From Gossypium raimondii (Eukaryota > Streptophyta > Magnoliopsida > Malvales > Malvaceae): DNA of 64,000 bases. The position numbers and the translations under genes were made by a program. The stretch spans positions 41,883,733 through 41,947,732 of the forward strand of contig NC_068571.1 of the NCBI RefSeq assembly GCF_025698545.1, written 5' to 3'. Within the stretch, counting starts at the first letter, position 1. Every line of letters begins with the position of its first letter. The notes below the pieces were generated by a model. It saw only the letters and a program-made list of their open reading frames with translations, was not told where the DNA came from and did no database searches. Of this stretch, positions 6,785 to 45,900 are shown piece by piece.

Positions 6785-9700
6785 AAAGAAGGTAATAGAT
6801 ATACAGATATGTTCGCAAGGTTTAGAAAAAATATTTCAAAGGAAAATTATTCCATACATTATTTGTGAAGTACGTTGAGGATATTATTTGGACTGATGAA
6901 TAAATTGATGTTATAAGTTAATCAAAGGTCAATATAATTGAAAATGATAAAAAAATAATGGGTAATTATTTGATACATCGCGAATGAAATTTTTATACTT
7001 TACAAGTGGGTTAAGGTGCGATAAGTGTCACACTTATTTATATAATTAATTTTTTTATTTTTACTACATCCTATAAAAATTAAAATCAATGTGTTACAAT
7101 AAATAATTGAAAAAGTAATTTAATAAATTTTAAATATTTTTAACAAAATATAATTCATAAAATATTTGCTCAATAAACTTTCAAATATAATATATAATAG
7201 ATATTATTAACAAGATATTTAATTTATAAGTAAAACTTTAATTTTAAAAATTTCAAAATATGCAACCAATGAAAAGCTATACAAATTTCAACAAGTATTT
7301 TTAATCTTAAAATCGACATTATTAGAAAAAAGGCTATTAACTCGAACATAAATTATAAAATAGACATGAAAAAAATACATATAAGTCCGAAGGAAAAGTA
7401 AGAAACACATAAAACAAGAGCTAAATTTGTGAAAACAAAGCTTATAACACATTAAGAAAATTTTGCAATGTCATCCAATGTGTATATTAACCATACATTT
7501 CATACACATAATTTTTAAAATACACAAATCCCAATTATACACACAAGCAGCATGACCTCCAACTCCAAGCATCACTGTAGTAAGTAAAAAGTAATATTTC
7601 ATAGATTAAGGCTCCACAATGATCTTACCAGTGGCATGCCCATCAATGCTCTTAGCCCATGCTTCCTCAGCCTTACTTAGGGGATACTTTGAATCGATTA
7701 CCGTCTTAAGCTTCCCGCCTTTCACTAAGTTAACCAGATAATCGAGGTTCTCCTTTTTAGGTGACAATTGCAGTGGTTCCAGCTTCTTCTTTGAGAAGGT
7801 AAGCTTTTTCACAGCACAAGTTAGGAAAGCACTAAGACCGGGGGTTATGTCGATTACCTTCCCGTTTGAACTTAGATTAGGTTCAAAGGTAGACCAAGGA
7901 ATACCAGAAGCACAGTGGATCACTACATTGTATTTGCGACCGGAAGGGCTTTTCAGAGCTGCACCGTCGGGAGTTTTGTAGTCAAGAACCTCGTCTGCTC
8001 CGAGGCTTTTGACAAAATCCAGATTACGAGCCCCACAAGTGGCTGTTACAAATGTGTTTCCAAGCTTTGCTAGTTGAACTGCGTAATGACCTACACCACC
8101 TGAAGCAGCAGTAATCAAGAGGTTTAATTGCTGGCCACTTCCGTCAAGCTTGACCCCAGCCCCATGGGTGACTGCTTGGTGAGCTGTGAGACCAGCCATG
8201 GGTAAACCAGCAGCTTCGGTAACTGATATTTCTGGTGGCCTTGCAACTGTCATATTCTCCTTAGCCACAGCATATTCAGCTAGTCCACCTCCAGTCTATC
8301 ATTGCATATATAATTCATATTAGAAGATGGCCATAGCAATCTACATAATTGATATTGATTCGTTTATAATACGAGACTACAGGGCCGGACTTTTTATGCT
8401 TTTTTTTTTTTTGGGGGCGGGCATTAAGAATGAGAATGAGAACTTACCAAATGATCAAGAAGAGATACAACTTTATCCCCAACTTTGTAATTTGTGACTC
8501 CTGGTCCAACCTTTACGACTTCTCCGGCTACATCACTTGCTGCACAAGAAAATAAAAATCTTTTACCGATGATTAAAATGCGGCGATCCAAATATCAACA
8601 GAGAGAAAACTACAAATCTTACTGAAGACAGGTTCTTTAATATGACTTGCAAATGGTATATAGCTAGACAACTTTCATTTGAGATATCAAATCTTCACGT
8701 TTTAAAAGCATTAGCTCTATGACAATAGGATGCCAAAAATTACCATCAAATAACCACAAGTGCTTAAACTAAGAGACCTACAAACCAGTCTATTATTTTT
8801 TTGGTTAATTATAAAAGAAGGATATGCCTTAACAACTAGACAAATTCTGTCCTTTAATGACAATAGACACATTTTTTCCCATCAATGGTTGCAACTAAAG
8901 CAAACTCCACAAATGTAAACCATCAGTTCAACCAGTCTGTACCGGTTCAAAGCCATTCTCCGGACCGGTACCTCTACTGGTCTGGTTCAAACATCGATAA
9001 AAAGTCTCGAGAATATATAAACTACCAGGTATGAAGGGGAATTTTCTAGGTAAAAGTGGGCGCAGCATCCCTTTCTGTATTTTCCAGTCAGCTGGGTTTA
9101 GACTAATTGCCTCCAGTTTAAGCAAAATTTCACCTTTATTTGGAGTTGGGATCGGAACTTCAACATGCTGTAAAAAGCACAAAAATTCACAGCGTTATAA
9201 AATCAAGTCCCTGCCGATTATTTTTTCCAGTTTATATCAAGCAGGTCTATATAAAAAATTTAAACACTTCACTGTAAAGTATCAACCTCTCCGTCTCAGC
9301 AAATCTTTAATTTACTTCAATTCCAGAAAATTCCACTATCCTAGTGCTTAGCGGCACTCATTCAAATTATCTATATGCTTTCAATCACAAATTTAACTAA
9401 TAAAAATTTGAATCCGACGATAAAATGGGTCAACACTTAACTTCTCCATCAAGTCAACCTCTCTCAATCTCAGATCCTTTTTGTGAAATTTTAATTCCGA
9501 ATACCAAATCCCTAGTTCATTTCCCTTCCAGAAAATTCCACTTCCTTAGTAGCTCACGGCACGCGTTGGAATCATCTTCATGCTTTCTTCAATCACAAAT
9601 TTAACTAATAGAATTTTGAATCCGAAGAACAAACTTAGATCAATATAAACACTAGATTAACAACCTTAATTAATTGAAATCTCCGCTTAAAAGACGAATT

Positions 9701-11166: not shown

Positions 11167-14100
11167 TTTATTAACCTTAAAGAAGATAACAAATATACAG
11201 ATATAATCGCAAGGTTTGGGAAAAATATTTCAAACGAAAATTATTCTATACATTGCTCCTAAAGGCTCCACATGCGTTGAGGATGTTATTTGAATTGATG
11301 AATAAATTGATTTTAGAAGGTAATCATACGTCAATACAATTGAAAATGATAAAAATCAATGGGTAATTATTTGATACATTGCCAAGTGGATTAATGATAC
11401 AATAAGTGTCACATTTATTTATATAATTATTTTTTAATTTTTTACTACATCCTTTAAAATCAAAATCAATGTGTTACAATAAATAATTGAAGATAGGATA
11501 AAAAAAAGTAATTTCATAAGTTTTAAATATTTTCTAACAAAATAAAATTCATAAAAATTTGCTCAATAAACTTTCAAATATTATATATAATAGATATTAT
11601 TCACAAGAATTTTAATTTATAAGCAAAACTTTAGTTATAAAAAATTTTTGAAATATGTATCCAATGAAAATCCATACAATTTTCAACAAGTATTTTTAAC
11701 CTTAAAATAGACATTATTATAAAAGACGGCAATCAACTCCAAACATAAATTATAAAATATACATGAAAAACACATATATAACTCCAAGTCCCAACTACAT
11801 TTCATTGCTCAAATTATCAACTAGAAAAAGTAAGGAAAAGTAGGAACCATATAAAAGAAGAGCTAAATTTATGAAAACAAACCTTATAACACATTAAGAA
11901 AATTTTTGCAATGTCATCCAACGTGTATATTAACCATACATTTCATACACATAATTTTCAAGATACACAAATCCTAATTATACACACAAGCAGCATGACC
12001 TCCAAGCATCACTGCAGTAAGTATAAAGTAATATTTCATAGATTAAGGCTCCACAATGATCTTACCAGTGGCATGACCATCCATGCTCTTAGCCCATGCT
12101 TCCTCAGCCTTACTTAAGGGATACGTTGAATCGATTACCGTCTTAAGCTTCCCGTCTTTCAATAAGTTAACCAGATAATCGAGGTTCTCCTTTTTAGGTG
12201 ACATAAAGAGTGGTACCAGCTTCTTCTTTGAGAAGGTAAGCTTTTTCATAGCACAAGTTAGAAAAGCACTAAGACCAGGGGTTATGTCGATTACCTTCCC
12301 GTTTGAACTTAGATTAGGTTCAAAGGTAGACCAAGGAATACCAGAAGCACAGTGGATCACTACATCGTATTTGCGACCGGAAGGGCTTTTCAGAGCTGCA
12401 CCGTCGGGAGTTTTGTAGTCAAGAACCTCATCTGCTCCAAGGCTTTTGACAAAATCCAGATTACGAGCCCCACAAGTGGCTGTTACATGTGTGTTTCCAA
12501 GCTTTGCTAGTTGAACTGCGTAATGACCTACACCACCTGAAGCAGCAGTAATCAAGAGGTTTAATTGCTGGCCACTTCCGTCAAGCTTGACCCCAGCCCC
12601 ATGGGTGACTGCTCGGTGAGCTGTGAGACCAGCCATGGGTAAACCAGCAGCTTCGGCAACTGATATTTCTGGTGGCCTTGCAACTGTCAGATTCTCCGTA
12701 GCCACAGCATATTCAGCTAGTCCACCAGTCTATCATTGCAAATATAATTCATATTAGAAGATGGCCATAGCAATCTACATAATTGATATTGATTCGTTTA
12801 TAATACGAGACTACAGGGCCGGACTTTTTATGCTTTTTTTTTTTTTTTTGGGGCGGGCGTTAAGAATGAGAATGAGAACTTACCAAATGATCAAGAAGAG
12901 ATACAACTTTATCCCCAACTTTGTAATTTGTGACTCCTGGTCCAACCTTTACGACTTCTCCGGCTACATCACTTGCTGCACAAGAAAATAAAAATCTTTA
13001 ATCGATGATTAAAATGCGGCAATCCAAATATCAACAGAGAGAAAACTGCAAAGCTTACTGAAGACAGGTTCTTTAATATAACTTGCTAATGGTATATAGC
13101 TAGACAACTTTCATTTGAGATATCAAATCTTCACGTTTTAAAAGCATTAGCTCTATGACAATAGGATGCCAAAAATTACCATCAAATAACCACAAGTGCT
13201 TAAACTAAGAGACCTACAAACCAGTCTATTATTTTGTTGGTTAGTTATAAAAGAAGGATATGCCTTAACAACTAGACAAATTCTGTCCTTTAATGACAAT
13301 AGACACATTTTTTCCCATCAATAGTTGCAACTAAAGCAAACTCCACAAATGTAAACCATTGGTTCAACCAGTCTGTACCGGTTCAAAGCCATTCTCCGGA
13401 CCGGTACCTCTACTGGTCTGGTTCAAACATCGATAAAAAGAAAGAGTCTCGAGAATATATAAACTACCAGGTATGTGGGGGAATTTTCTAGGTAAAAGTG
13501 GGCGCAGAATCCCTTTCTGTATTTTCCAGTCAATTGGGTTTAGACTAGTTGCCTCCAGCTTAAGCAAAATTTCACCTTTATTTGGAGTGGGGATCGGAAC
13601 TTCAACATGCTGTAAAAAGCACAAAAGAATTCAAAGCTGTTATGACATCAAGTCGCTGGCGATTATTTTTTCAAGTTTATATCAAGCAGTTCCATATAAA
13701 AAATTTAAACACTAAACTTCACTGTAAAGTATCAACCTCTCCGTCTCGGCAAATCCTTAATTTACTTCAATTCCAGAATATTCCACTATCCTAGTGCTTT
13801 GCGGCACTCATTCAAATTATCTATATGCTTTCAATCACAAATTTAACTAATAAAAATTTGAATCCGACTATAAAATGGGTCAACACTTAACTTCTCCATC
13901 AAGTCAACCTCTCAATCTCAGATCCTTTTTGTGAAAATTTTAATTCCGAATAGCAAATCCCTAGTTTATTTCCGTTCCAGAAAATTCCACTTCCTTAGTA
14001 ACTCACGGCACACACTGGAATCATCTTCATGCTTTCTTCAATCACAAATTTAACTAATAGAATTTTGAATCCGAAGAACAAACTTAGATCAATATAAACA

Positions 14101-19139: not shown

Positions 19140-20680
19140 TCAAGAACAATTGTAGGTGTTGTCAGTCCCTTGGAAAAATCTTGAGTACCCATCGAGACAA
19201 CAATAATGGCTCTTACCTGCTAATCGCTCGAGCATTTGATCGATGAAGGGGAGTGGAAAATGATTTTTCCGAGTAGCCGCATTCAACTTTCTGTAATCGA
19301 TGCAAACCCTCCATCCATTCTGGACTCGGGTAGGGACTAGCTCTCCTGATGAGTTTTTCACCACTGTCACGCCAGTTTTCTCGAGCACGACGTGAACCAG
19401 GCTAACCCAATCACTGTCGGAGATCGGGTATATCATTCCAACATCTAGCAGTTTCTGGATCTCCTTCTTTACTACCTCCATCATGGGTGGATTAAGACGC
19501 CTTTGAGCATCTCTCTTTGGTTTCGTGTTATTTTTTATGGAAATTCTGTGCATACAAGTGGATGGACTTAGCCATTTTATGTCGGCTATTGTCCAACCAA
19601 TAGCTTCCTTATAATCCCTCAGAACTCGAACTAGACTTTCCTCCTCGTCTTTGGTTAGTTTGTTTGACACTATCACTGGTAAGGTGTCTTTTTCTCTCAA
19701 AAAGACGTACTTGAGGTGGTTCGGTAATGCTTTAAGCTCCAAGGTTGGTGACTGCAAAACCGAAGGCAACATTTTAGTTTAGAAAGGTAATAGTTCAAAT
19801 TGTTTACCTCGATTCGTCGACGATGGTTGCGTCTCCAAGTGTTTGACAATTTCTCACAACGGATCTCCTATAATTGATAATTCCTCGAGATGACTTAAAA
19901 CATCCATGTCAATGCTTCTATAAATGAAAGTTTCTAACTCATCAAAGTCATGATATTCGAGATAAGATTGAGTTAAACAATCTATACTATCGATACTAGA
20001 AATATTTAATAGTGAGTTAGGATGACTCATAGTTTCGTAAACATTGAATTCACGATTTCGCCATCAAACTCCATTGTCAGTGTTCCGCTCCGAACGTCAA
20101 TTTTTGCGCTTGCGGTACTTAGAAATAGCTTTCCAAGCAAAATGTCAGACAAATTAGTTGAGTTATCATCCTCCATATTAATAATGTAAAAATCTGCAAG
20201 GAAAACTAATTCGTTAACTTTAACAAGGACGTCTTCAAGCAACCCTTCGGGGTAGATGACTGACCTGTCCGCCAACTAGATTATTACTCCTGTCTTTTTC
20301 AAAGGACCCGCGTTAATCAACTTATAAATAAGATAATGCATAACATTAATGGAAATCCTTGAATCACACATGGCTTTCTTAATGCCTACATTACCTATCT
20401 CATAGGAAATAGCAAACATACATTGGTCTTTGTATTTGGGTGGAACTTTCTTTTGCAGTACTGCGGAGACATTTTCTCCTACATTTACTCTTTCGTTACC
20501 TATTAACCTCCTCTTACTAGTACACAGTTCCTTGAGGAATTTTACATAACAAGGGATTTGTTTGATAGCGTCGAGCAAAGGGATATTTACCTCCACATTC
20601 CTGAATGTTTTGAGGATTTCTTTTTCCTTCTTCTCTTTCTTATCCTTTGCGAGCCTCCCTGGAAAAGGAGGTGGCATCAC
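19140..20680 (-). pseudogene. Truncated protease-reverse transcriptase of the Athila-like element
   Basis: The protease region (20680-20027) has the surrounding Athila-type motifs ILLGKLFLSTA and LTMEFDGE. Where D-(L/T)-G-A-S should carry the catalytic aspartate it reads DSRIS, and a stop codon at 20276-20278 interrupts it. The RT part (19772-19140) has DIKWLSPS, CMHRI, RRLNPPM, GWRVCIDYRKLN and LPFIDQMLERLAGKS, and reaches CCLDGYSRFFQ (motif A with its aspartate). It then breaks into unrelated sequence before the YxDD box. RNase H and integrase are missing. The product is inactive. Confidence 0.8.
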
Positions 20681-21051
20681 AACTGGTTTATAAATTTCTG
20701 ATTCCAGTCTGGCTTTTGGATCAAAGATCTGCTTTTCCGTTCATTATCTTGCCCATGACTTTTGTCTGGAACTGTTTTCAAAACTTTTCCACTACGAAGA
20801 GTTATTGTACTTGCATTCTACCAAGGATTTGTCTCTGTCTAGGAAGGTAATTTACCTTGAGACTCCAAACGATTAACTGTCATTGAGAGTTTACTAACCT
20901 GATTAGTTAACTCTTGTATTGATGCATCTGTCCTTTGTTGGTATTTTGCAGCAGCGACGGCAAGTCTCTCCATAATAGCTTTTAAAGATGTGTTCGGCTT
21001 GGGTGGTGGTTGCGGTGGTTGCAAAGCTCTCGGTTGGTATGACGGATTATA

Positions 21052-22265
21052 TCAATGATTAGCTCTATAATTCAAGTTGGGATGATCCTTCCACCCGGGA
21101 TTGTAGGTGTTGGAGAAAGGATCATAGCGTCTTTGCGGAGGTCCCGGAAAGCCTTCGATAGTGTCAACATGTGCTGTTGAATTTTCGGTAAGGATTGGGC
21201 ACAAATCCGTCGGATGTTCAGATGTAGTACAAATTCCACACAGTTGGGTCAGATTCTTCTTTTCTGTAAGCATAGATTGAATAATGTTAGTGAGCTTATC
21301 CAATTTATCTTGTAAGGATGAAATGTTTACCCCATTAATCCGTCTTGTGGGTTCTAAATTCGACCGATACTGTTGAGAATTTGTCGCCATAGTGGATATC
21401 AGTTCTCTCGCCCTTTGTGGAGTCATATTGACAAGCGCCCCTCCATTAGCAGCGTCAATCATCTTCATTTCCATAAGGAGCAGACCCTCGTAGAAATACT
21501 GAAAAAGTGATTGTTCGGTCCAGTCGTGTTGAGGACAACTTGCACACAGTTTTTTTATCGCTCCCAATAGCCATAGAGTGATTCACTCTCTATTTGGTGA
21601 ATTCCCACTATGTCTCTCCTAAGTTTAGCTGCTTGCAATGCTGGGAAAAATCTGTCAAGAAAAACACGAGATAAGTCATCCCACGTTGTAATAGAACTGG
21701 GGGTAAGTAAAATAACCATTCTCTTGTTGTATCAACTAAAAAAAATGGAAAGACCCGAAGTTTAATTTCATCTTCGGTTACTCCCTGAGGTTTCATGCTT
21801 GAGCAGACCATGTGGAATTCTCTCAAGTGAGTGTGAGGATTTTCGTTCTTCAAGCCTCGAAAAGTGGGCAAAAGGTGGATCAGGCCTGACTTCAACTCGA
21901 ACGGGGTTTCTCCGGCTGGATAGTTGATGCATAACGGTGTTTGCTCGTTGGGAGTAGCGGCTAGTTGACGAATGGTTCGGTTCGCCATCCTTTCTAGTTC
22001 ACCGACTTCTGCTTCTTTTGTTTCAAAAAGTGGTTCGATCTCAGGTTCAACCACTCCGACTTGTTTTCCACGTCGAATTGCCTTTGCACGAATTGTTTGG
22101 CTCAACCTTTTGACGTCGGATTCTAGGATCCCTTGTCCTAGCTCAACTTCTGTTTTACTTGCACGTTTAAGAGCTTTTGTCTCTTTTCATCGTGCTTGTG
22201 TTGATTTCTCAATCTCTGGGTCGTATTCGAGATCTTCGGATGAAGATCTGGTCATGAAGATGATT
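21052..22265 (-). pseudogene. Gag of the Athila-like element, frameshifted
   Basis: The retrotransposon-gag domain is read at 22105-21608 (LPTFRGLKNENPHTHLREF, then TREWLFYLPP). It continues in another frame at 21567-21052 (LFQYFYEGLL, ANGGALVNMTPQRARELI). A zinc-binding-like CGICTTSEHPTDLCP follows. The frame change near 21600 and stops in the N-terminal part show decay. A further fragment at 21024-20839 (MERLAVAAAKYQQRTDASIQ, a likely coiled coil) is the gag-pro linker. Confidence 0.7.
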
Positions 22266-35236: not shown

Positions 35237-35245
35237 TTGTCAAGT
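35237..35245 (+). repeat. 9-bp target-site duplication, left copy (TTGTCAAGT)
   Basis: It is identical to 42613-42621 on the other side of the Mutator-like element. A perfect 9-bp direct repeat is diagnostic of Mutator-superfamily insertion. Confidence 0.92.
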
Positions 35246-35365
35246 GGGTAATTTATCAATAAAAGCCTTTTTTTTTTTAAAATACCGAAATGGGCCCATT
35301 ATTTTATTATTTACCGGAATGGTCCATTTTCCGCGAAATCACGTCCACGTCAGCGCGATGTCAGG
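35246..35365 (+). repeat. Left terminal inverted repeat of the MULE
   Basis: The first about 115 bp match the reverse complement of 42500-42612 with a few mismatches and one short homopolymer indel. The match decays beyond the 'cgcgaaatcacgtccacgtcagc' motif, which is itself repeated internally. Confidence 0.88.
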
Positions 35366-35376
35366 GTACGCGTTAG

Positions 35377-35422
35377 GAAATCACGTCCACGTCAGCAACT
35401 CCGCTGACGTGGACGTGATTTC
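35377..35422. other. Perfect 20-bp hairpin in the MULE subterminal region
   Basis: The left arm GAAATCACGTCCACGTCAGC (35377-35396) and the right arm GCTGACGTGGACGTGATTTC (35403-35422) are exact reverse complements around a 6-nt loop. Each arm holds a TGACGT/ACGTCA bZIP-type core. It lies about 75 bp upstream of the TATA box of the plus-strand gene. It may be a transposase or host-factor binding site. Confidence 0.75.
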
Positions 35423-35495
35423 GGCCCGCGCGTGAACAGTACCCAACGGTCAAAAATTTGACCGTTGTCCCCCCCTGAACGGTAAAAAAAAAAAC

Positions 35496-35503
35496 TATAA
35501 ATA
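35496..35503 (+). promoter_or_regulatory. TATA box of the plus-strand MULE gene
   Basis: TATAAATA lies about 180 bp upstream of the predicted ATG (35680) and just inside the terminal repeat region. A leader rich in 'ctctc' follows, typical of plant 5' UTRs. Confidence 0.5.
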
Positions 35504-35679
35504 CCCCCACCCCTTTTTATTTTTTCACAAACAAATCCTCTCTCATATTTCCTCTCAATTTCCTTCCAAAATTCTCTCAAATCCATAATTAATTTCAATT
35601 TGCTCTCAATTTCCTTTTTTAAAATAATTTTAATTTTTTTATATTTTTATAGATCGTAAAAATTTGTACGATTTCATCA

Positions 35680-37838
35680 ATGGCCGGATCATTGACTCGT
35701 CTTGATAAGCATCACATATCGGTGGAACAAATGAAAATGGTAAGTGTTAAATTTAATTTTTAAATATTATTTAATTTTTTTTATTTATGCACTTTTAGAT
35801 AATTATTAATTTATTATTTGTTATAAAATTCTGTAGATCGGGTATCGGAATGCAATATCTGGAATATGCATGCTCCTCCATCACCGATGGTAGAGAACTA
35901 CCTGCGGTAAGCGGGTTTTTGGCACGTGGCGACGGTAGGCCGGGGATGCAAGTTGGACCCGAAATTGGTCAGTGCGTTGATCGAGAGGTGGAGCCCCGAG
36001 ACGCACACATTCCATCTTTCATGTGGAGAGTGCACTATCACTCTAGAAGATGTCCGTCTACAATTGGGATTGCCGGTGGACGGGTACCCAGTCACCGGGT
36101 CTACCCAATCTAGCAATTAGGAGGCGGTGTGCTACGAGCTTTTGGGCGCTATTCTGGAGAAAATGGAGGGAGGTAAGGTTGAGATGGGCTGGTTACATGA
36201 CACATTCCCTGATTCGGATGAAGATTCAACCGAAATTGAAAGAATCCGATATGATCAGGCATACATTCTTCCATTAATTGGAGTTTATCTGATGCTCGAC
36301 ACGTCACGGAGCAGTGTACATCTAAGATGGCTGCTGAAACTCGTTGATTTTAGAGCAGCCGGTGAATTGAGTTGGGGGTCTGCCGTCTTGGAAACATTAT
36401 ATCAGGAGATGTGCGGGGTGACGCGACAGAGGAGAGCAAACATCGGAGGTTGCCTGTCACTACTACAGTCATGGGCACGGTTTCGCTTTCCATTTCTACG
36501 TCCTCGAGTGAACCACTCATATACATTTCTACTTATAACGAGGTAAATTTTATATTACATTTTACAATTATTATGTAGATTTTTAAAAATAAAAGTATGC
36601 TAAAATTTTATTTAATTAGGTGGAACCATCCAGCAAGTTATGCTCGATTACTGTTCTCTCTTGAAGATATACAGCTTCTATTGGACCAACGGTCGGAAGC
36701 ACAAGTAAGTATTATTGCAAATAGATATTTCTATACATTCGCTAGTCGATTGATATTTAGTATTTAGTATTATATATATAACTAATATTTTTTTCATGTT
36801 CATATAGTTTCAATGGACACCATACGAGGATCCGGCAATTCGGGCAGTAATCCCTGAAGAGTTTTTACAAAATCCACAAGCTTGGCACGTGAAAGTCGTG
36901 TTGATCAACCACGCAACCGTGAAACCGCACCAGACAGACAGAGTGCTACAACAGTTTGGATGTAGACAACCGATTTCGGTGGATCCTGAGGTGTTTGACG
37001 ATCAACACAAAGTCGACCTTCGGCAATTAAATACGGATTGGACGAGATACTGGTCTGAGTACATGGAAATATGGAAAGATCAGTATGAATATCTACCTAC
37101 TCGGGAACTAATCATCGTTCCAGAGTTAGCGTGCGTTCCAGAATACATGCCATGGTTTAGAATCTATGGCAAGCCGTATTTACTGATGCCAGAGGAGAGG
37201 CAGCGGCAAATACGTGTCGAAAAGGAAAGGCGCGGGCCTCTAAATCCAAGACGACAATACGACGAAGGCAGCCCCTCAATGAGGCCCAGACATTCACCCG
37301 GCTCATCATCAGCGGCCATGCAATCACCAGGCCTAACGAAAGCACCGACGCAGCAGTTCAACCGATGATACCCACGCAACCGCCTTTTTAGATGATGCCA
37401 GGTGCGTTTCCTAGCCCTTATATGTACCCTAACCCTTATATGTATCCTTTTCCGGTCCTATGGCAGGTTGGAGCCAAATGCCCGGTTCAGCTCCATTTCC
37501 TGTTATACCGAGCGGACCGCCGATGTATAGGCCAGCAGCGCACGAGGGATCGCAAGGGGGGCCGTCGGGGAGCTCTCCTTTTTACCAATCCCCACCAACG
37601 TATGGGTTTCAAACACAGTCGCCGTTCCTGATGCAAACACCTCCACCTACACTATTCTTTGAAGGTGGATCATCGTCCCAAGTCCGACAACTAGATGTCT
37701 AACCGGAAGAACCAGAATCCCCACCGGAGGAACAACAACCGCCACCGGAAGCTAAAGAAAGGAGGAATCCAGCGCATAACAGTCGATGGCCGCCATGTGG
37801 CACTGAATCCCCGGGCATAGACATTGATTGCCGTATTT
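35680..37838 (+). pseudogene. Plant mobile domain (MAIN/MAIL1-like) protein of the MULE, decayed
   Basis: The predicted exons are 35680-35739, 35837-36542, 36620-36704 and 36808-37838, with GT-AG borders. The start is MAGSLTRLDKHH. The plant mobile domain follows: AGFWHVATVGRGCKLDPKLV, THTFHLSCGECTITLEDVRL and QLGLPVDGYPVTG. Next come the conserved stretches VCYELLGAILEKM, YILPLIGVYLML and ARFRFPFLRPR, then PEDPA-like FQWTPYEDPAIRA. A Pro/Met-rich tail (37370-37700) closes it. Stops at 35908 (TAA where Glu is likely) and 36118 (TAG where Trp is likely), a frame change near 37368, a stop near 37389 and another frame change near 37455 make it non-functional. In Arabidopsis the domain is found in MAIN and MAIL1, which act in transposon silencing and genome stability; related domains are carried by plant transposons. 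This copy is transposon-borne. Confidence 0.85.
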
Positions 37839-38029
37839 AAATTTATTTGTACAAATATTTTGAATATTTTGATATTATTTTATGTAAAAAAATAGAAATT
37901 TTTTGAGTTATTTTGATATTATTTGATGTAATAAAATAGAAGTTTATTTGATGTAATAAAATAGGAATTTTTTCGAGTTATTTTGATATTATTTGATGTA
38001 ATAAAATAGAAGTTTATTTGATATAATAA

Positions 38030-38720
38030 AAATCCTAACCTAATTTAACCTAAACCCCGACCTAATTTAATTAAAACCCTAAACCTTAACTTAAAAACCC
38101 TAAACCTTAACTTTAAAAACCCTAACCTAATTTAATACAAAACCTAACCTAATTTAATTAAAAACCCTAACCTAACCTAATTTAATACAAAACCTAACCT
38201 AATTTAATTAAAACCTAACATAATTTAATTAAAAACCTAACCTAACCTAATTTAATTAAAATCCTACCCTAACCTAATTTAATTATAAACCCTAACCTAA
38301 CCTAATTTAATTAAAAACCTAACCCTAACCTAATTTAATTAAAAGCCCTAAACCTTAACTTAAAAACCCTAAACCTTAACTTTAAAAACCTAACCTAATT
38401 TAATTAAAAACCCTAACCTAACCTAATTTAATTAAAAACCTAAATCTTAACTTAAAACCCTAAACCTTAACTTTAAAAACCCTAACCTAATTTAATTAAA
38501 AACCCTAACCTAACCTAATTTAATTAAAAACCCTAAACCTTAACTTTAAAAACCTAACCTAATTTAATTAAAAACCCTAAACTTTAACTTAAAACCCTAA
38601 ACCTTAACTTTAAAAACACTAACCTAATTTAATTAAAACCCTAACCCCTTAACTTAAAAACCCTAACCCTTAACTTTAAAACCCTACCCCTAACTTAATT
38701 TAATTAAAACCCTAAACTAA
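38030..38720. repeat. Telomere-like degenerate repeat tract inside the MULE
   Basis: About 690 bp consist of variants of 'aaccctaacctaatttaatt' and 'aaccctaaaccttaacttaaa'. Many contain CCCTAAA or CCTAACC cores, as in plant telomeres, alternating with AT spacers in units of about 20-40 bp. The tract fills the interval between the 3' ends of the two convergent genes. It is imperfect, so replication slippage of a short seed is likelier than a captured telomere. Confidence 0.75.
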
Positions 38721-38892
38721 ATTAATAATTTTATATTCACGTAATGTTAGATTTGGAAAAATGTTTTGACTGGTAGTAACAATTAATAATTTTATATAAT
38801 TTGATAATTTTACTAACCATTAATACAATTTTTTGAGTTAATACAATTTATCAATTAATAATTGCACAAAGTTAATTTTTTTACAATTACAT

Positions 38893-41822
38893 TCAACTAT
38901 TGCGATTAGGGCATGATCGACTTGTATGGCCTGGATTCCTTCACCATCCACACAACTTCGTTTGACTGGCTGTTTCTCGGATATCTATATTGTTACGTAT
39001 TCTAGTCGAGTAAGGTTGACCCTTTGGTTTGCGACGTAATTCTCTATCCGGTAACAGCTTAAAATGAGTAAGAAATACGGGCAGCCACTTACGTTCATCT
39101 GGACCGGTGGGAAAACGTGTCTCCAAATGTTGTACATATTTTCTAATTTGTACACTTCGTCCACATAACTCATCGGATCCAGACGGAGTTTCTGACAAGC
39201 TGCAATAACATGAGCGCATGGATAACGAAGTGCATCAAACATCCCACAGTCACAAGTCCTATTTCGCAAGTGTACACGATATTGCCCACCAACAACACCT
39301 TGGTGCGTTCTGTCAAACTCTGTCACGCGAAACCATAAATTGTCTCGATCGTGACACACTGTGTGCATGGTGTTTGCCCTTGCCTTGGCCTTGTTAATTT
39401 CTTGAACTATCTTACTGCACCATACATGGCCTCCCTGCATCTGGCCTGCATAACTTGCTGCTCGCTTTGGAAATATCGCCGCCAAATGAAAATATGTCTC
39501 TCGCACAACCGATGTTATCGGTAGATGGCGCGTTCCTTTAAGAACAAAATTTATGCATTCAGCCAGGTTCGACGTCATATGGCCATATCGTAGGTCAGCC
39601 GTATGCTTGTGCCCTTGTTCAAACGTATGTTACAAAGGTAGTCCGCCCCTTCTCCGTTAATTGAACGTAAAATTACCAACATCTCGTGAAAACGATTTTT
39701 ACTTATTTCATACCCTGCCAATATAAGATCATAGCGAATAATTTATACCACTTCTACTAATAAAACTAATTCAAATTGACAAACGAAATAACACAGATAT
39801 AAACTAAATACCCATGTTGGTCATTTGTTGTCGTTCGTTCTTAGATGGATATTGCCTGTAGTAGTTCGAAGCAACATGTCTTAGGCAATATGTATGGTGT
39901 GTGCGCTGCCATAAGCTTCCCTCTCGATCAAATGCAGCTAGTATACCGGCGCCCCGATCTGAAATAACACAGATATCAGGTTGGGGGCACACATGCCTCC
40001 TTAACCTAGAGAGAAAGAAATCTTAGTTATTAGACGACTCTCCCGGTGTTATTGTAAATGCAATTGGAAGAATTCTCCCGCCGCCATCCTATGCCACTGC
40101 AAGCAATAGCCGATGAGTATACCTACTGAACATGAAGGTACCGTCAATTTGTACCAACGGCTTGCAGTATGAAAATGCATCTCTGCATTGCTTAAAGGTC
40201 CAAAACAGGCGTTTGAACACTTGGCATCCACGTAGCAATCGACCATTGTAGTACGCATGTTCCGTTTCAAGGTTTGTGATGGCACCTGGGACGTATCTCT
40301 CTAGCACCTGACACCACTGCCATATTTCATTATATGAGGCGTTCCACCCACTATGCATCTTCTCTAACGCCTTTTGCTTAGCTATCCAAGCCTTGCGGTA
40401 AGAGGGCATTTACCCCATTTGGCTACGGATATTGGCAATTAACACCGGCACTGAAGTCCTAGGATCTGCTTTTATCTTGGGCAGTATCAAGCTAGCTAAC
40501 ATAGCTGAATCTATTTTGGGATGATCTTGTGAAACACCTATAAAGGGAGTACATTAAATAATGTAACATTGCATAATAAAAGTATTATTCAGATACCGTC
40601 AATATTGTACCTGCAGCACGTGTATGTGGACATTTGTACTTTTTTATCTCTCACAACCTTGTCATTTTCCTTAACGAGACATAGATTTTCCATGAACATG
40701 TGCCGTCTTGCACCGCATACTTCGCCTCAAACTTATCAGATTTTGATTTAACGACGTGGTAGTTAACGCCGTTTTTGATGCTATGTTGTTTCAAAGCACC
40801 AATAAAACTATCCTTGTTGGTAAACTGATTATCAACTTCAAGTTCACCGAAATCTACCCCCGAACTTGTACGATCACGCAACCGGTGTGGTAGATCTGGA
40901 AACTCTAACGCATCATCTACAGACAGATCGACATTATGCATGTGGGCTGGAGGTGAGTATGCTCTGAATCGTGGATTTTCTTCCTCATCTGAACTCCTTT
41001 CAGCATCTTCAGCTTCTGTTGGAATAGGCTCCGATTCAAAAAATAAGCCAACTTCTGCACCATCCGGCTCGGGCTCTCAAGGTGGATCCACATCGAAGTC
41101 ATCTTCTAACCCACAATCATCTGTAGTGTACGAGGTCCCCTCACCGGTTGACGTCGCAGGGAGTACATCATCCCTTCTTCTGGGCATTTGATAACGTCCC
41201 CAATTGGATTTAGATTGCCACCCACTAGAACTTGATGCCGCTCCCCAGTACGTATTTCTAGCATCAAACATCGAGCCACCGACGTACATGTCCTATCCAC
41301 AGACAGAGTGTCTTGCAGGGGATGGCATTCGACACCGCTACCGAACATGGGCTGTTCCGTATTTTGTAACCCGCTGACTGAGTGTCGGCCAGGGGTGGTG
41401 TATACATCTCGAGCACCGGTCGCAAGTACATCAGTTGGCGATGTAAATTGTACATATAACTCAATATAAGGTGCTCCACTAGCAAGATGAGCTTGCACCA
41501 TTGCCTCCAAGCTACGAGCACTTTTTATGTCGAATAAGTCATATGTCACCGGATCAACAGAAGAATAAAATCGATACGTGATAGGCAGAACTTTCATTGG
41601 CGTCGTTCCGAAAATTTTATGCCTAATTCTTTTACGAAGTTCTATCAAATCTATGTTCTGGTTAAAAACTAGTCGCACCATATTCTCCGACAAAAAAACA
41701 ACACCATTCTCGGTGTGGCAAACCTCACCATCGTAGTAAATAACAACACTAATACGTTCACTCATATTTGAAACTCTAACCTTCTTAGCCTCTCTAAATT
41801 GTTTCTGCTGTGACTTATGCAT
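38893..41822 (-). pseudogene. MURA-type MULE transposase, decayed
   Basis: Read on minus from the ATG at 41822. A PB1-like N-terminal domain (SERISVVIYYDGEVCHTENG, PITYRFYSS) comes first, then an acidic linker. The plant MuDR domain follows (about 40870-40650: ELEVDNQFTNKDSFIGALKQ, CSWKIYVSL). In the MULE transposase core, the first Asp is in VQIDGTFMF (codon 40145-40143), the second in CVISDRGAGIL (about 39970) and the probable Glu in SNLAECINFVLKG (about 39560). A SWIM zinc finger (CDCGMFDALRYPCAHVIAAC, about 39190-39250) and a C-terminal zinc knuckle end the protein. Introns interrupt it near 40610-40550 and 39823-39706. Stops include CGA to TGA at about 41074-41076, probable TGG to TGA near 40647 and CAG to TAG near 40089. 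Frame changes lie near 41295, 39620 and 39110. The catalytic residues remain readable, but the gene cannot give a full protein. Confidence 0.88.
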
Positions 41823-41865
41823 TCTGAGAACATTTTCTGCCTAATTTATAGCCTCAGCCCAAACA

Positions 41866-42365
41866 TGCTACTATAGCAAAAGCGCATCCACAAGGGCGCG
41901 ATTTCACAAATTCTTTTCAAATAGCATCCTGCTAGAAGCGATTTTATACTATTTGCTCAGAAACGTCAAAAAAATTTATTTTTTACATGACCTACTGTTG
42001 CAAAAGCGCGTCCACGAGGGCGCGATTTCACAAATTCTTTTCAAATAGCATCCTGCTAGAAGCGATTTTATACTATTTGCTCAGAAATGTCAAAAAAATT
42101 TATTTCTTTCGTGACCTACTGTAGCAAAAGCACGTCCACGAGGGCGCGATTTCACAAATTCTTCTCAAATAGCATCTGCTAGAAGCGATTTTATACTATT
42201 TGCTCAGAAACATAAAAAAGGTAATTATTTCTTCCGTGACCTACTGTAGCAAAAGCGCGTCCACGAGGGCGCGATTTCACAAATTCTTCTCAAATAGTAT
42301 CCTGCTAGAAGCGATTTTATACTATTTGATCAGAAATGTCAACTCGAAATTATTTCTTCCAGGAC
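41866..42365. repeat. Four tandem 124-bp subterminal repeats of the MULE
   Basis: Units start at 'gcaaaagcgc' near 41876, 42000, 42124 (gcaaaagcac) and 42249. Each has 'gcgtccac(g/a)agggcgcgatttcacaaattctt', 'agcatcctgctagaagcgattttatactatttg' and a variable AT part. The 'cgtccacg...gcgcgattt' core recurs in the terminal repeats, so these units may be clustered transposase-binding sites. They lie immediately upstream of the transposase gene. Confidence 0.85.
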
Positions 42366-42499
42366 CTAAACAGCCTGAACCCTAAACCCTAAAAGCCAAA
42401 AAAACATAACGTGGGAAAAACAACAAAATCGCGTCCACGTCGGTAGCGATGTCGAGTGCAGCGTTAGGAAATCGCGTCCATGTCGTGACGTACCACGAC

Positions 42500-42612
42500 A
42501 TCATACCGACGTGAACACGATTTCGCGGAAAATAGACCATTCCGGTAAATAATTAAATAATGGGCCCATTTCAGTAATTTTTAAAAAAATGGTTTTTATT
42601 GGTAAATTACCC
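42500..42612 (-). repeat. Right terminal inverted repeat of the MULE
   Basis: It is the reverse complement of the left end and closes in TTGGTAAATTACCC. Adjacent to it, 42427-42520 holds a second imperfect palindrome built from 'cgcgtccacgtcggtagcgatgtcg' and 'cgacatcataccgacgtgaacacg', the counterpart of the left-hand hairpin. Confidence 0.88.
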
Positions 42613-42621
42613 TTGTCAAGT
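42613..42621 (+). repeat. 9-bp target-site duplication, right copy (TTGTCAAGT)
   Basis: Exact repeat of 35237-35245. The DNA on both sides joins into one continuous AT-rich spacer when the element is removed. Confidence 0.92.
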
Positions 42622-42979: not shown

Positions 42980-45900
42980 ATGGAGGATTTCGATATCCCG
43001 GCGGCGGAAGACATGATGAACGAAGATATGGATCTTCCCGACGAGAGTCCCATTCTGAAAGTCGGAGAAGAGAAGGAGATCGGAAATCAAGGCTTGAAGA
43101 AGAAGCTTGTTAAGGAAGGTGAAGGTTGGGAGTATCCTGAAATCGGAGACGAAGTTGAAGGTATGAATAAATTATACTAATAAAAAGCTAAGAAAATGCT
43201 TTTTTATTTTATTTTAAAAATCAAATTGTTTTGGATTCTGATTGTTTGTTAATTGTTGCAGTTCATTATACGGGGACGTTGCTGGATGGAACTCAGTTCG
43301 ATTCAAGCCGTGATAGAGGCACTCCTTTCAAGTTCACTCTCGGTCAAGGTAAACGAATATAAGTCTTATTTCTGTTTTTAAATTTTGTGTAATTAATTTA
43401 ATTTTCCGCTCTACATTGGATTTGATGGAAAAATGGCAAACTTAATCTTCTAAGTATAGTTTGATTTTAGTTTTTTTTAACCTATTAGTTAAGCTTGTTT
43501 TGTTTCTTCTATTTACAATTATGGAACTTATATTAAAAGTGCGATGAGGAGTTTTTGAGATAAAACTTTAGCGTTCCTGCTTGCAGCTTGTTTAAACTTA
43601 CAATGTGAATATATTTTTGAACTTGTTTTATTTGGAACTTAATGGAGGCATGTCTTTGAATCTTATTGATTTGTTTCTTGTTGATATTATGAGTTTTTTT
43701 TTTTTGGGGTCTTTTGATGATAATATTGAGGGGCAAGAACTCTGTAAGTTCGAGATGTATTTGATGTGTTATATGAATGTTTTATTGTTAAGTTCCAGCT
43801 TAGTATTGGACCTCTAGGTATCTTTTTGTTGAAGTGAAAAAATCTGGTGAAGTGGGGGTTTGCCTTAATATTGTATTTCGGCTTTCGTTTTAATGTTTGC
43901 AGGACAAGTTATTAAAGGATGGGATGAAGGTATTAAGACAATGAAGAAAGGTGAAAATGCCATCTTTACCATTCCCCCTGCACTTGCGTATGGCGAGTCT
44001 GGTTCACCACCAACCATTCCCCCTAATGCAACCCTCCAATTTGATGTTGAATTGTTATCTTGGACAAGTGTCAAGGATATTTGCAAAGATGGTGGGTTAT
44101 TTAAAAAGATACTTATTGAAGGTGACAAATGGGAGAATCCAAAGGACCTTGATGAAGTGCTCAGTATGTATCGTAATATGTTCTGTCTTCATTTAGTTAT
44201 TAATGATATTATAATCAAGAGGGGTGTCTATTTTGAGCTAGTGAGGTTTAATAATGGGTTTTTATCTTGAACGCAGTTAACTATGAAGCTAAGCTCGAGG
44301 ATGGCACAGTGGTGGCAAAAGCCGAAGGCGTAGAGTTCACTGTTAAGGATGGTTTGTATTATCTATGCTGTTGTTCTTCATCTTATTTCCCTCCTAGTAT
44401 GTCACCTGTAATTCTTAAAATACCCCTGTGATTGGTTCTTCCTCTATGAACAGGTCTATTCTGTCCTGCTTTGGCAAGGGCTGTTAAGACAATGAAGAAG
44501 GGGGAGAAGGTGCTTCTTACAGTGAAGCCACAGTGTAAGTTATTCTATCTATTCAATAACATGAATGTAAATATGTCGGTTCTTGTTTCTGATGTTTAAC
44601 CCTATTTTTACTATGATAAAGATGGTTTTGGTGAGAAGGGGAAGCCAGCCACTGGTGCTGAAGGTGCAGTGCCTCCAAATGCCACACTCTTGATTACTTT
44701 AGAGTTGGTTTCATGGAAAACTGTGACTGAAGTAACTGATGACAAGAAGGTTATAAAGAAGATCTTGAAGGAAGGAGAGGGATATGAGCGCCCAAATGAG
44801 GGGGCTGTTGTCCAAGGTTGGTGTTAAGTTATGAGAAGAAATTTCAACCTTCCCTATCCAAAACAATTTGATGTTGAATATGTATCTTTTATGCATCTTT
44901 TTGCAGTGAAATTGATTGGGAAACTGCAAGATGGTACCATATTCTTGAAGAAGGGCCACAATGAAGGAGAAGAATTGTTTGAGTTCAAGACAGATGATGG
45001 TAACAGATGGTCCTCCCCCCAAAAGACACACACTCTCTATTGACTTCATGATTTTAACTGAATTATGACTGCTTGAATTTTTGTTACAGAACAAGTCATT
45101 GAAGGTCTTGATAGAGCTGTGTTGAATATGAAAAAAGGCGAAGTAGCACTGTTGACTATTGCACCTGAGTATGCATTTGGGTCATCCGAGTCAAAGCAGG
45201 AGTTCGCTGTGGTACCGCCAAACTCTACTGTTTACTATGAAGTTGAGTTGGTATCATTTGTCAAGGTTAGTGGATCAGTATGCATGTTATGATTTAGTTT
45301 CTTTGTTGTGTACCTGCAAAATATTTTCTTGGAAATTTGTTACAAGTGGTTTCCATGAGCTGCTTTTTTTCAGGAAAAAGAATCATGGGATCTGAACACC
45401 CAAGAAAAAATTGAAGCTGCTGGTAAAAAGAAGGAAGAAGGAAATGTATTGTTCAAGGCTGGCAAATATGTGAGAGCTTCTAAGAGATATGAGAAGGTAT
45501 TTAGTGCAATGAACGTGTTCCCTTGTAAAAGTTTCAGTTTCTACTTTCAATATCCTGTCATTTATTGTTGTTTTTATGTGCAGGCTGTTAAGTATATTGA
45601 TTATGATACTTCCTTTAGTGAAGAGGAGAAAAAGCAGTCCAAGGCGTTGAAGGTTGCTTGCAATCTGAACGATGCTGCTTGCAAATTGAAACTAAAGGAC
45701 TACAAGCAGGCTGAGAAGTTGTGCACCAAGGTTAGAATCCTCTTCATGGCAACAATCATGATTTCTTGATAGATATCATAACGATGTTAACTGTTCCGTT
45801 TCATCCACGTGCAGGTTTTAGAATTAGAAAGTGCAAACGTGAAAGCACTGTATAGAAGGGCTCAAGCATACATCAATCTGGCAGATTTGGATTTGGCGGA

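Follow-up and report, generated by a model that had tools for sequence, protein, structure and literature searches.

A two-gene Mutator-like element of Gossypium raimondii that pairs a MURA-type transposase with a mobile-domain protein of predicted VANC21-like fold

The window analysed here is a 64,000-nucleotide stretch of the Gossypium raimondii genome (NCBI RefSeq assembly GCF_025698545.1, contig NC_068571.1, positions 41,883,733 to 41,947,732 of the forward strand; contig C7 in an assembly of 750.8 Mb and 281 contigs). It holds a Mutator-like element (MULE) at window positions 35246-42612, which belongs to a common cotton family and is best explained as the decayed remnant of a two-gene MULE that was formerly autonomous, with a plant mobile domain (PMD) gene facing a MURA-type transposase gene. 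Predicted structures of relatives of the PMD protein share their fold with VANC21, an Arabidopsis transposon (VANDAL21) protein that switches off host silencing. Our preferred reading, to which we assign a probability of roughly 0.45, is that the PMD protein may be an anti-silencer acting via the element's own repeats, and we rank it ahead of a decoy of the host proteins MAIN/MAIL1 and of a factor resembling maize MURB. Papers are cited by their PubMed Central identifiers.

The element and its genes

The bounded element of 7,367 bp with matching inverted ends, the perfect 9-bp target duplication and the two convergent genes described in the initial annotation were all borne out. The inverted arms pair 35246-35275 with 42583-42612 (30 nt, 90%) and 35270-35370 with 42489-42589 (101 nt, 85%), and form terminal inverted repeats (TIRs) of about 125 bp. 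The target-site duplication (TSD) is identical on both sides, and the PMD gene (plus strand) and the MURA gene (minus strand) face each other with their 3' ends. The features of the element are the following.

35237..35245, no strand: left copy of the TSD, TTGTCAAGT, 9 bp, 0 mismatches at offset 0
35246..35370, plus strand: left TIR, arms of 30 + 101 nt
35334..35423, no strand: clustered copies of the 9-bp motif RCGTCCACG at the left end, with perfect inverted repeats of 20-22 nt among them; candidate protein-binding sites
35496..35503, plus strand: TATA-box-like TATAAATA upstream of the PMD gene, present in 15 of 16 copies
35681..37827, plus strand: PMD gene, broken; exon limits by eye and alignment
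38024..38726, plus strand: intergenic telomere-like tandem array separating the 3' ends of the genes; units of 22-28 bp, for example CCTAACCTAATTTAATTAAAA
38905..41765, minus strand: MURA-type transposase gene, broken, approximate limits; N part, DBD_Tnp_Mut, MULE core, SWIM finger and C-terminal knuckle
41844..41850, minus strand: TATA-box-like TATAAAT upstream of the MURA gene, present in 16 of 16 copies
41868..42368, no strand: subterminal tandem repeat, 4 copies of 124 bp with RCGTCCACG-type motifs
42489..42612, minus strand: right TIR, arms of 30 + 101 nt
42613..42621, no strand: right copy of the TSD, TTGTCAAGT, 9 bp, 0 mismatches at offset 0

The PMD gene comprises exon 1 (about 35681-35739), exon 2 (35837-36542), exon 3 (36620-36704) and exon 4 (36808-37827, with a proline-rich tail). 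Its splice columns, which cover the complete dinucleotide at the first donor and at the second and third acceptors and are shifted by one base at the three remaining sites, do not vary among 16 copies, except that the first acceptor agrees in 15 of them. The mobile domain assigned to this gene was recovered, PF10536 scoring 71.6 and 37.3 bits on two exons (cut-off 34.9). The claim that the second gene carries a MULE core plus a SWIM finger held for the finger (37.5 bits, cut-off 19.6); for the core PF10551 no window piece gave a Pfam match, and DBD_Tnp_Mut reached 24.5 bits, slightly below its cut-off of 25. The core was found in a relative, L024, whose read-through with X at stops scored 46.6 bits for PF10551 (cut-off 27.6) and 31.2 bits for SWIM, with DBD_Tnp_Mut also above its cut-off. 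The D, D and E residues in the read-through of the window MURA are presumed ones. With its 9-bp TSD, TIRs, SWIM finger and MULE transposase domain (the core via L024), the element has the hallmarks of a MULE, and a PF10536 gene within the TIRs, antisense to MURA, makes it a PMD-bearing one.

The window copy is non-functional, a point that the initial annotation had missed. Measured against the family alignment, its PMD gene (600 codons) is interrupted by 4 in-frame stops and 3 frame-shifting indels, and its MURA gene (921 codons) by 7 and 4, respectively. At least one PMD lesion was seen in all 21 copies (the window and 20 relatives), and at least three MURA lesions in each of the 18 copies having MURA; these copies were picked by likeness to the window, and the census leaves room for intact copies elsewhere.

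Recurrence of the ends and of the gene pair

Genome searches with the two ends (best 40 of 2208 first-look candidates scored for the left end, best 40 of 1566 for the right) gave at least 40 near-full-length matches of 89-100% identity to the left end and at least 40 matches covering at least 101 of 120 bases of the right end, own ends included, plus one further match of 33 nt in each case. For the PMD and SWIM pieces, the best 150 of 3472 and the best 150 of 3511 first-look candidates were scored and 150 matches listed for each, and the first 20 of the 149 other listed PMD matches were fetched as relatives. Both ends were found in 18 of these 20 (L009 and L028 had no detected end pair). Taking the best of 49 end offsets for each relative, the TSD was perfect over 9 bp in 12 (a poly-T tract in L026), had one mismatch in 5 and was absent in 1 (L011). 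Since ends and TSDs recur in this way, the boundaries of the element are not due to chance. MURA sequence was present in 17 of the 20 relatives, with a deletion in L017, while L020, L021 and L026 carry PMD without MURA. Four loci picked by their left end (4 of the 39 others; L029-L032) proved to be elements of about 1.1-1.3 kb with neither gene; L029, L031 and L032 measure 1,060-1,097 bp, are flanked by perfect TSDs and carry repeats of 318-338 bp at their ends, and L030 has no matching TSD. These short elements were probably moved by MURA in trans.

Of the 150 listed MURA matches, 41, counting the window's own, have a listed PMD match no more than 8 kb away, where 0.48 pairs in any orientation are expected, and all 41 pairs are convergent. 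From the other 109 MURA matches we took every third of the first 60, giving 20 loci of 1.4 kb each. PMD-gene DNA adjoins MURA in all 20, convergently judging by strands, although at L045 and L051 the stretch holds only the end of the PMD gene and has no protein-level match. A transposase of the same family without the PMD gene was looked for and was absent from these 20 sampled loci, and the two-gene pairing as such is real. In a genome search with Pfam models, 12 pairs were seen among the 117 PMD and 150 MULE matches used (second-exon matches of the PMD list excluded), and among the matches listed all 12 are convergent. L062 is a pair from another family, with 45-53% identity in the SWIM part and facing stop codons at 605-607 and 819-821. 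Over 16 copies PMD and MURA distances correlate (Spearman 0.45, a value as high being reached in 38 of 2000 permutations). Homologues of MURA gave 13 matches, 12 from Gossypium and 1 from Citrus. The pairing of PMD with MURA is not new, being already described in PMC6446971 and PMC5418596.

The same arrangement brings up a role for the PMD protein as a second transposition factor, a counterpart of maize MURB that would aid insertion or excision rather than silencing evasion. MuDR has the same layout of two convergently transcribed genes (PMC3440606), mudrB is apparently required for integration (PMC6446971), and it is said to occur only in Zea (PMC3276141), which would leave its slot to another protein elsewhere. 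However, the Hibiscus and Senna gene models P0123, P0132, P0160 and P0169 hold PMD together with MULE transposase or SWIM domains on one strand, so that the convergent layout is not universal, and the sole clear structural match of the PMD protein is an anti-silencing protein. We consider a MURB-like role quite unlikely.

Selection on the two genes

In the majority letters of 17-21 copies, 235 of 235 codons of PMD exon 2, 28 of 28 of exon 3 and 344 of 348 of exon 4 are open (the test covers exons 2-4), as are 401 of 403, 249 of 269 and 276 of 277 codons in three MURA blocks, whose edges take in some non-coding letters. Between families, synonymous differences (pS) in PMD exon 2 amount to 0.714-0.822, near saturation, and replacement differences (pN) to 0.340-0.405 (seven window-family copies versus L057-L060, 28 comparisons). 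The SWIM part of MURA gave pS of 0.743-0.838 and pN of 0.325-0.365 versus L062 (7 comparisons), and by these sequence comparisons the constraint on PMD is about equal to that on the SWIM part, on different second-family loci. A second transposase stretch of L062 (pN 0.474-0.522, pS 0.662-0.773, 32-39% identity) is less constrained than PMD, though its alignment may be poor.

Within the family, the ratio of replacement to synonymous variants differs for MURA between variants in at least three copies and singletons (p = 0.0004), whereas the PMD tail shows no signal (p = 0.88); pairwise omega of the window versus six copies is 0.52-0.84. This within-family test is weakened by C-to-T decay and shared stops. 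Purifying selection on both genes is clear between families; within the family it is seen for MURA, and for the PMD core the signal is weak and falls short of significance.

These data also bear on whether the element picked up PMD from the host as a passenger gene, in the manner of a Pack-MULE. Gene capture by MULEs is known (PMC5418596), and L020 is a 2.6-kb element that has PMD, no MURA and a perfect TSD. On the other hand, PMD adjoins MURA throughout the sampled loci, stays open in the majority letters, and keeps its replacement sites between families at near-saturated synonymous divergence. Because of the pairing and the between-family constraint, we judge the passenger explanation very unlikely.

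Predicted fold and proposed mechanism

Structures predicted for two relatives of the PMD protein match, in Foldseek, VANC21 as solved in the protein-DNA complex 9lnj, and at the level of these models the PMD would have the DNA-binding fold of VANC proteins. Weak matches to DUF1985 occur in 43 of 75 PMD relatives (best E 6.8e-5), P0132 reaching 33.8 bits where the cut-off is 35.1, and PMD, DUF1985 and DUF7745 may form one superfamily. Weak DUF7745 matches were observed in 11 of the 75 relatives. A viral fold library gave no match at E 0.001. PMC6446971 reports PMD and/or DUF in half of the VANDAL group members, an earlier hint at kinship of PMD and VANC, and PMC8756742 mentions an unpublished VANC21 crystal structure. 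In mainly open-access literature we found no paper linking the PMD fold with VANC, a connection that the publication on 9lnj may already draw. According to PMC8616336 and PMC5418596, what the PMD does and how MAIN/MAIL1 act is unknown; the match to a solved protein-DNA complex gives this long-mysterious domain a testable job and makes the question one for a binding experiment.

We infer a scheme of DNA binding, anti-silencing and a matching target repeat. The PMD protein would bind a short motif repeated in the non-coding DNA of the element, as VANC21 does, the candidate targets being the one-orientation array (38024-38726), the RCGTCCACG motifs of the two ends and of the 124-bp repeats, or both. 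Binding would lift host silencing across the element and so let MURA be made, and MURA would then move the element and its short gene-less relatives through their shared ends. Host MAIN/MAIL proteins would share this DNA-binding fold, either as domesticated members or as sisters. What the analysis itself establishes is the convergent pairing where examined, the between-family conservation, the shared predicted fold and the arrays. The initial annotation had offered silencing evasion or a second transposition factor as roles for the mobile-domain gene; evasion gains support from the fold match and the one-orientation repeats, and the MURB-like role is retained with the low standing given above.

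It is a doubtful extension that the whole PMD, in MULEs as in host MAIN/MAIL, is the VANC DNA-binding fold, that sequence-specific anti-silencers, each suited to the non-coding repeats of its own element, are of long standing in angiosperm MULEs, and that host MAIN/MAIL1 are their domesticated opposite. If true, VANC-type anti-silencing would be an old feature of PMD-bearing MULEs and not a peculiarity of VANDALs.

Candidate target repeats

VANC21 has as its target a densely spaced 9-base motif, oriented one way, in non-coding tandem repeats subject to gain and loss of units (PMC5735166). In the cotton family, 15 of 16 copies contain 8-27 occurrences of CCTAACCTA, and none of the 16 has it reversed, which is the one-orientation pattern in non-coding tandem arrays of the VANDAL/VANC system; these are candidate sites only. 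Each of 16 copies has 2-7 occurrences of the motif RCGTCCACG, all confined to the outermost 250 bp on the left or 800 bp on the right, against a mean of no more than 0.10 in shuffled sequence; three short gene-less elements have 2-4 each.

We also observed that the stretch 38024-38726 is a telobox-like cluster on a transposon, rich in AAACCCTAA in one orientation. Teloboxes are bound by host telobox-binding proteins, and the array might consist of telomere-like boxes that recruit such proteins and Polycomb, or be a terminator between the facing genes; either is compatible with any role of the PMD protein. In line with this, 15 of 16 copies have four or more occurrences of AAACCCTAA (mean 18.9), never reversed, and antisense RNA of MuDR arises by failure of termination between its genes (PMC3440606). 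However, L017 is without the array and yet has a perfect TSD, although the loss, together with part of MURA, possibly came after insertion. This explanation of the array seems to us improbable on balance, if by no means far-fetched.

A number of points weigh against a VANC21-like role. As regards the fold, identity to VANC21 in the structural alignment is just 9-12%, the Foldseek E-value of the second model is 1.3e-2, the two models represent relatives rather than the broken protein of the window and have alignment rows in common; a common fold by itself proves no function. A sequence-profile search of the PDB missed VANC21 and returned two irrelevant low-complexity matches up to E 10, and P0001 gave no DUF1985 match at E 0.1, where a VANC protein would score above the curated cut-off. 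Within-family selection on the PMD core is not significant (Fisher p = 0.09 and 0.19). As regards the repeats, the unit TAATTTAAT is reversed 15 times in L014, L017 lost the array, and the array was not found in the intergenic stretch of L062, from the second family, and therefore cannot be a general PMD site. RCGTCCACG was picked by eye, after inspection, and is missing from L020 and L021. Because it is present in gene-less elements, and because MuDR has a MURA site in its TIRs (PMC3440606), it is a possible MURA site, which on our analysis may suit it at least as well.

Relation to host PMD genes

In exon 2 of the PMD gene, seven window-family copies show 37-39% identity to L056, a MAIL-type gene of the cotton host; the window copy shows 26-27% to three other host PMD genes, which have the domain in one open frame. 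An intron at the same position and in the same phase (before VEWLPY and FQWTPY) occurs in both the element's gene and the MAIL-type gene, while one intron on each side is not shared; the host MAIL-type exons are open as read by eye. By their sequence and exon structure L056 and L061 appear to be MAIL-type and L053-L055 PMD-B. A tree of 43 sequences, rooted on the three one-frame host PMD genes, places the window family in a 14-member Malvaceae clade (support 99) and the MAIL-type gene, on a long branch, inside a 30-member clade (support 90) that includes gene models with transposase domains. The element's PMD thus groups with MAIN/MAIL, as PMD-C, and not with PMD-B (clade names per PMC5418596). 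The direction of transfer between host and MULE is not settled.

This kinship underlies the idea that the transposon PMD mimics host MAIN/MAIL1 and poisons or hijacks the PP7L complex, so that silencing would be blocked in trans without binding of element DNA. The identity to the MAIL-type gene and the shared intron speak for such a decoy, as does the binding of MAIN and MAIL1 to PP7L in the silencing of transposable elements (PMC8616336, PMC7156037). Against it stand the fold match, which points to a DNA-binding anti-silencer, the deep divergence from the host gene and the introns that are not shared. We regard a decoy as unlikely.

Among the best 120 matches to the PMD query, all but four (two of these from Hibiscus) are Gossypium gene models. 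P0001, P0027, P0046, P0088 and other Gossypium models named phosphatase 7 long form homolog or MAINTENANCE OF MERISTEMS-like resemble transposon PMD genes, and these names probably often tag transposon genes.

Neighbouring sequences

The right end of the element lies 367 bp upstream of an ATG that opens a short reading frame (window 42980-43180), which resembles the start of a host FKBP-type gene; Pfam gave no match for it. Three near-alike frames on the minus strand (847-1536, 7606-8295 and 12043-12729) form a tandem triplicate that by eye resembles quinone oxidoreductase-like genes. A degraded retrotransposon with gag- and reverse-transcriptase-like pieces, likewise recognised by eye, occupies 19140-22186 on the minus strand.

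Comparison with known systems

According to PMC6446971 (Dupeyron 2019), most members of plant MULE groups 47-50 (MULE-Monocots, MDR, MUDRAVI2 and MUDR) contain a PMD, frequently antisense, and the MUDR group includes a G. raimondii sequence. The cotton element resembles these groups in its MURA with SWIM, 9-bp TSD, inverted ends and antisense PMD, a likeness of described features rather than of tree placement; the copy census, selection test, fold and arrays come from the present analysis and not from that paper. Capture of PMD-C by MULEs in grasses and Amborella, with a suggested anti-silencing function, is described in PMC5418596, and the idea is repeated in PMC8616336. The statement that eudicots hold mainly genic PMD-C (PMC7156037) does not seem to fit cotton. 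In tea, 175 phased small-RNA loci lie at PMD genes (PMC10673657), and further literature on the topic includes PMC9289625, PMC11152179 and PMC6419827.

Host MAIN/MAIL genes (PMD-C) have the PMD and one intron in common with the element's gene but differ in their open exons and in one intron on each side. Maize MuDR, with mudrA and mudrB, is alike in its two convergent genes, TIRs, 9-bp TSD and candidate sites in the ends (PMC3276141, PMC3440606), but the second gene of the cotton element is a PMD gene, MURB having been compared by description and not by sequence. From VANDAL21 the cotton element differs in the low identity of its accessory protein, for which an anti-silencing activity like that of VANC21 is proposed. 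It may also differ in its TIRs of about 125 bp, VANDALs being described as without TIRs or with short degenerate ones, yet a table in the same source lists 46-174 bp for the group (PMC6446971). With VANDAL21 and VANC21 it nonetheless shares a MULE transposase accompanied by an accessory protein of the same predicted fold, and one-orientation arrays of a non-coding motif whose number varies between copies.

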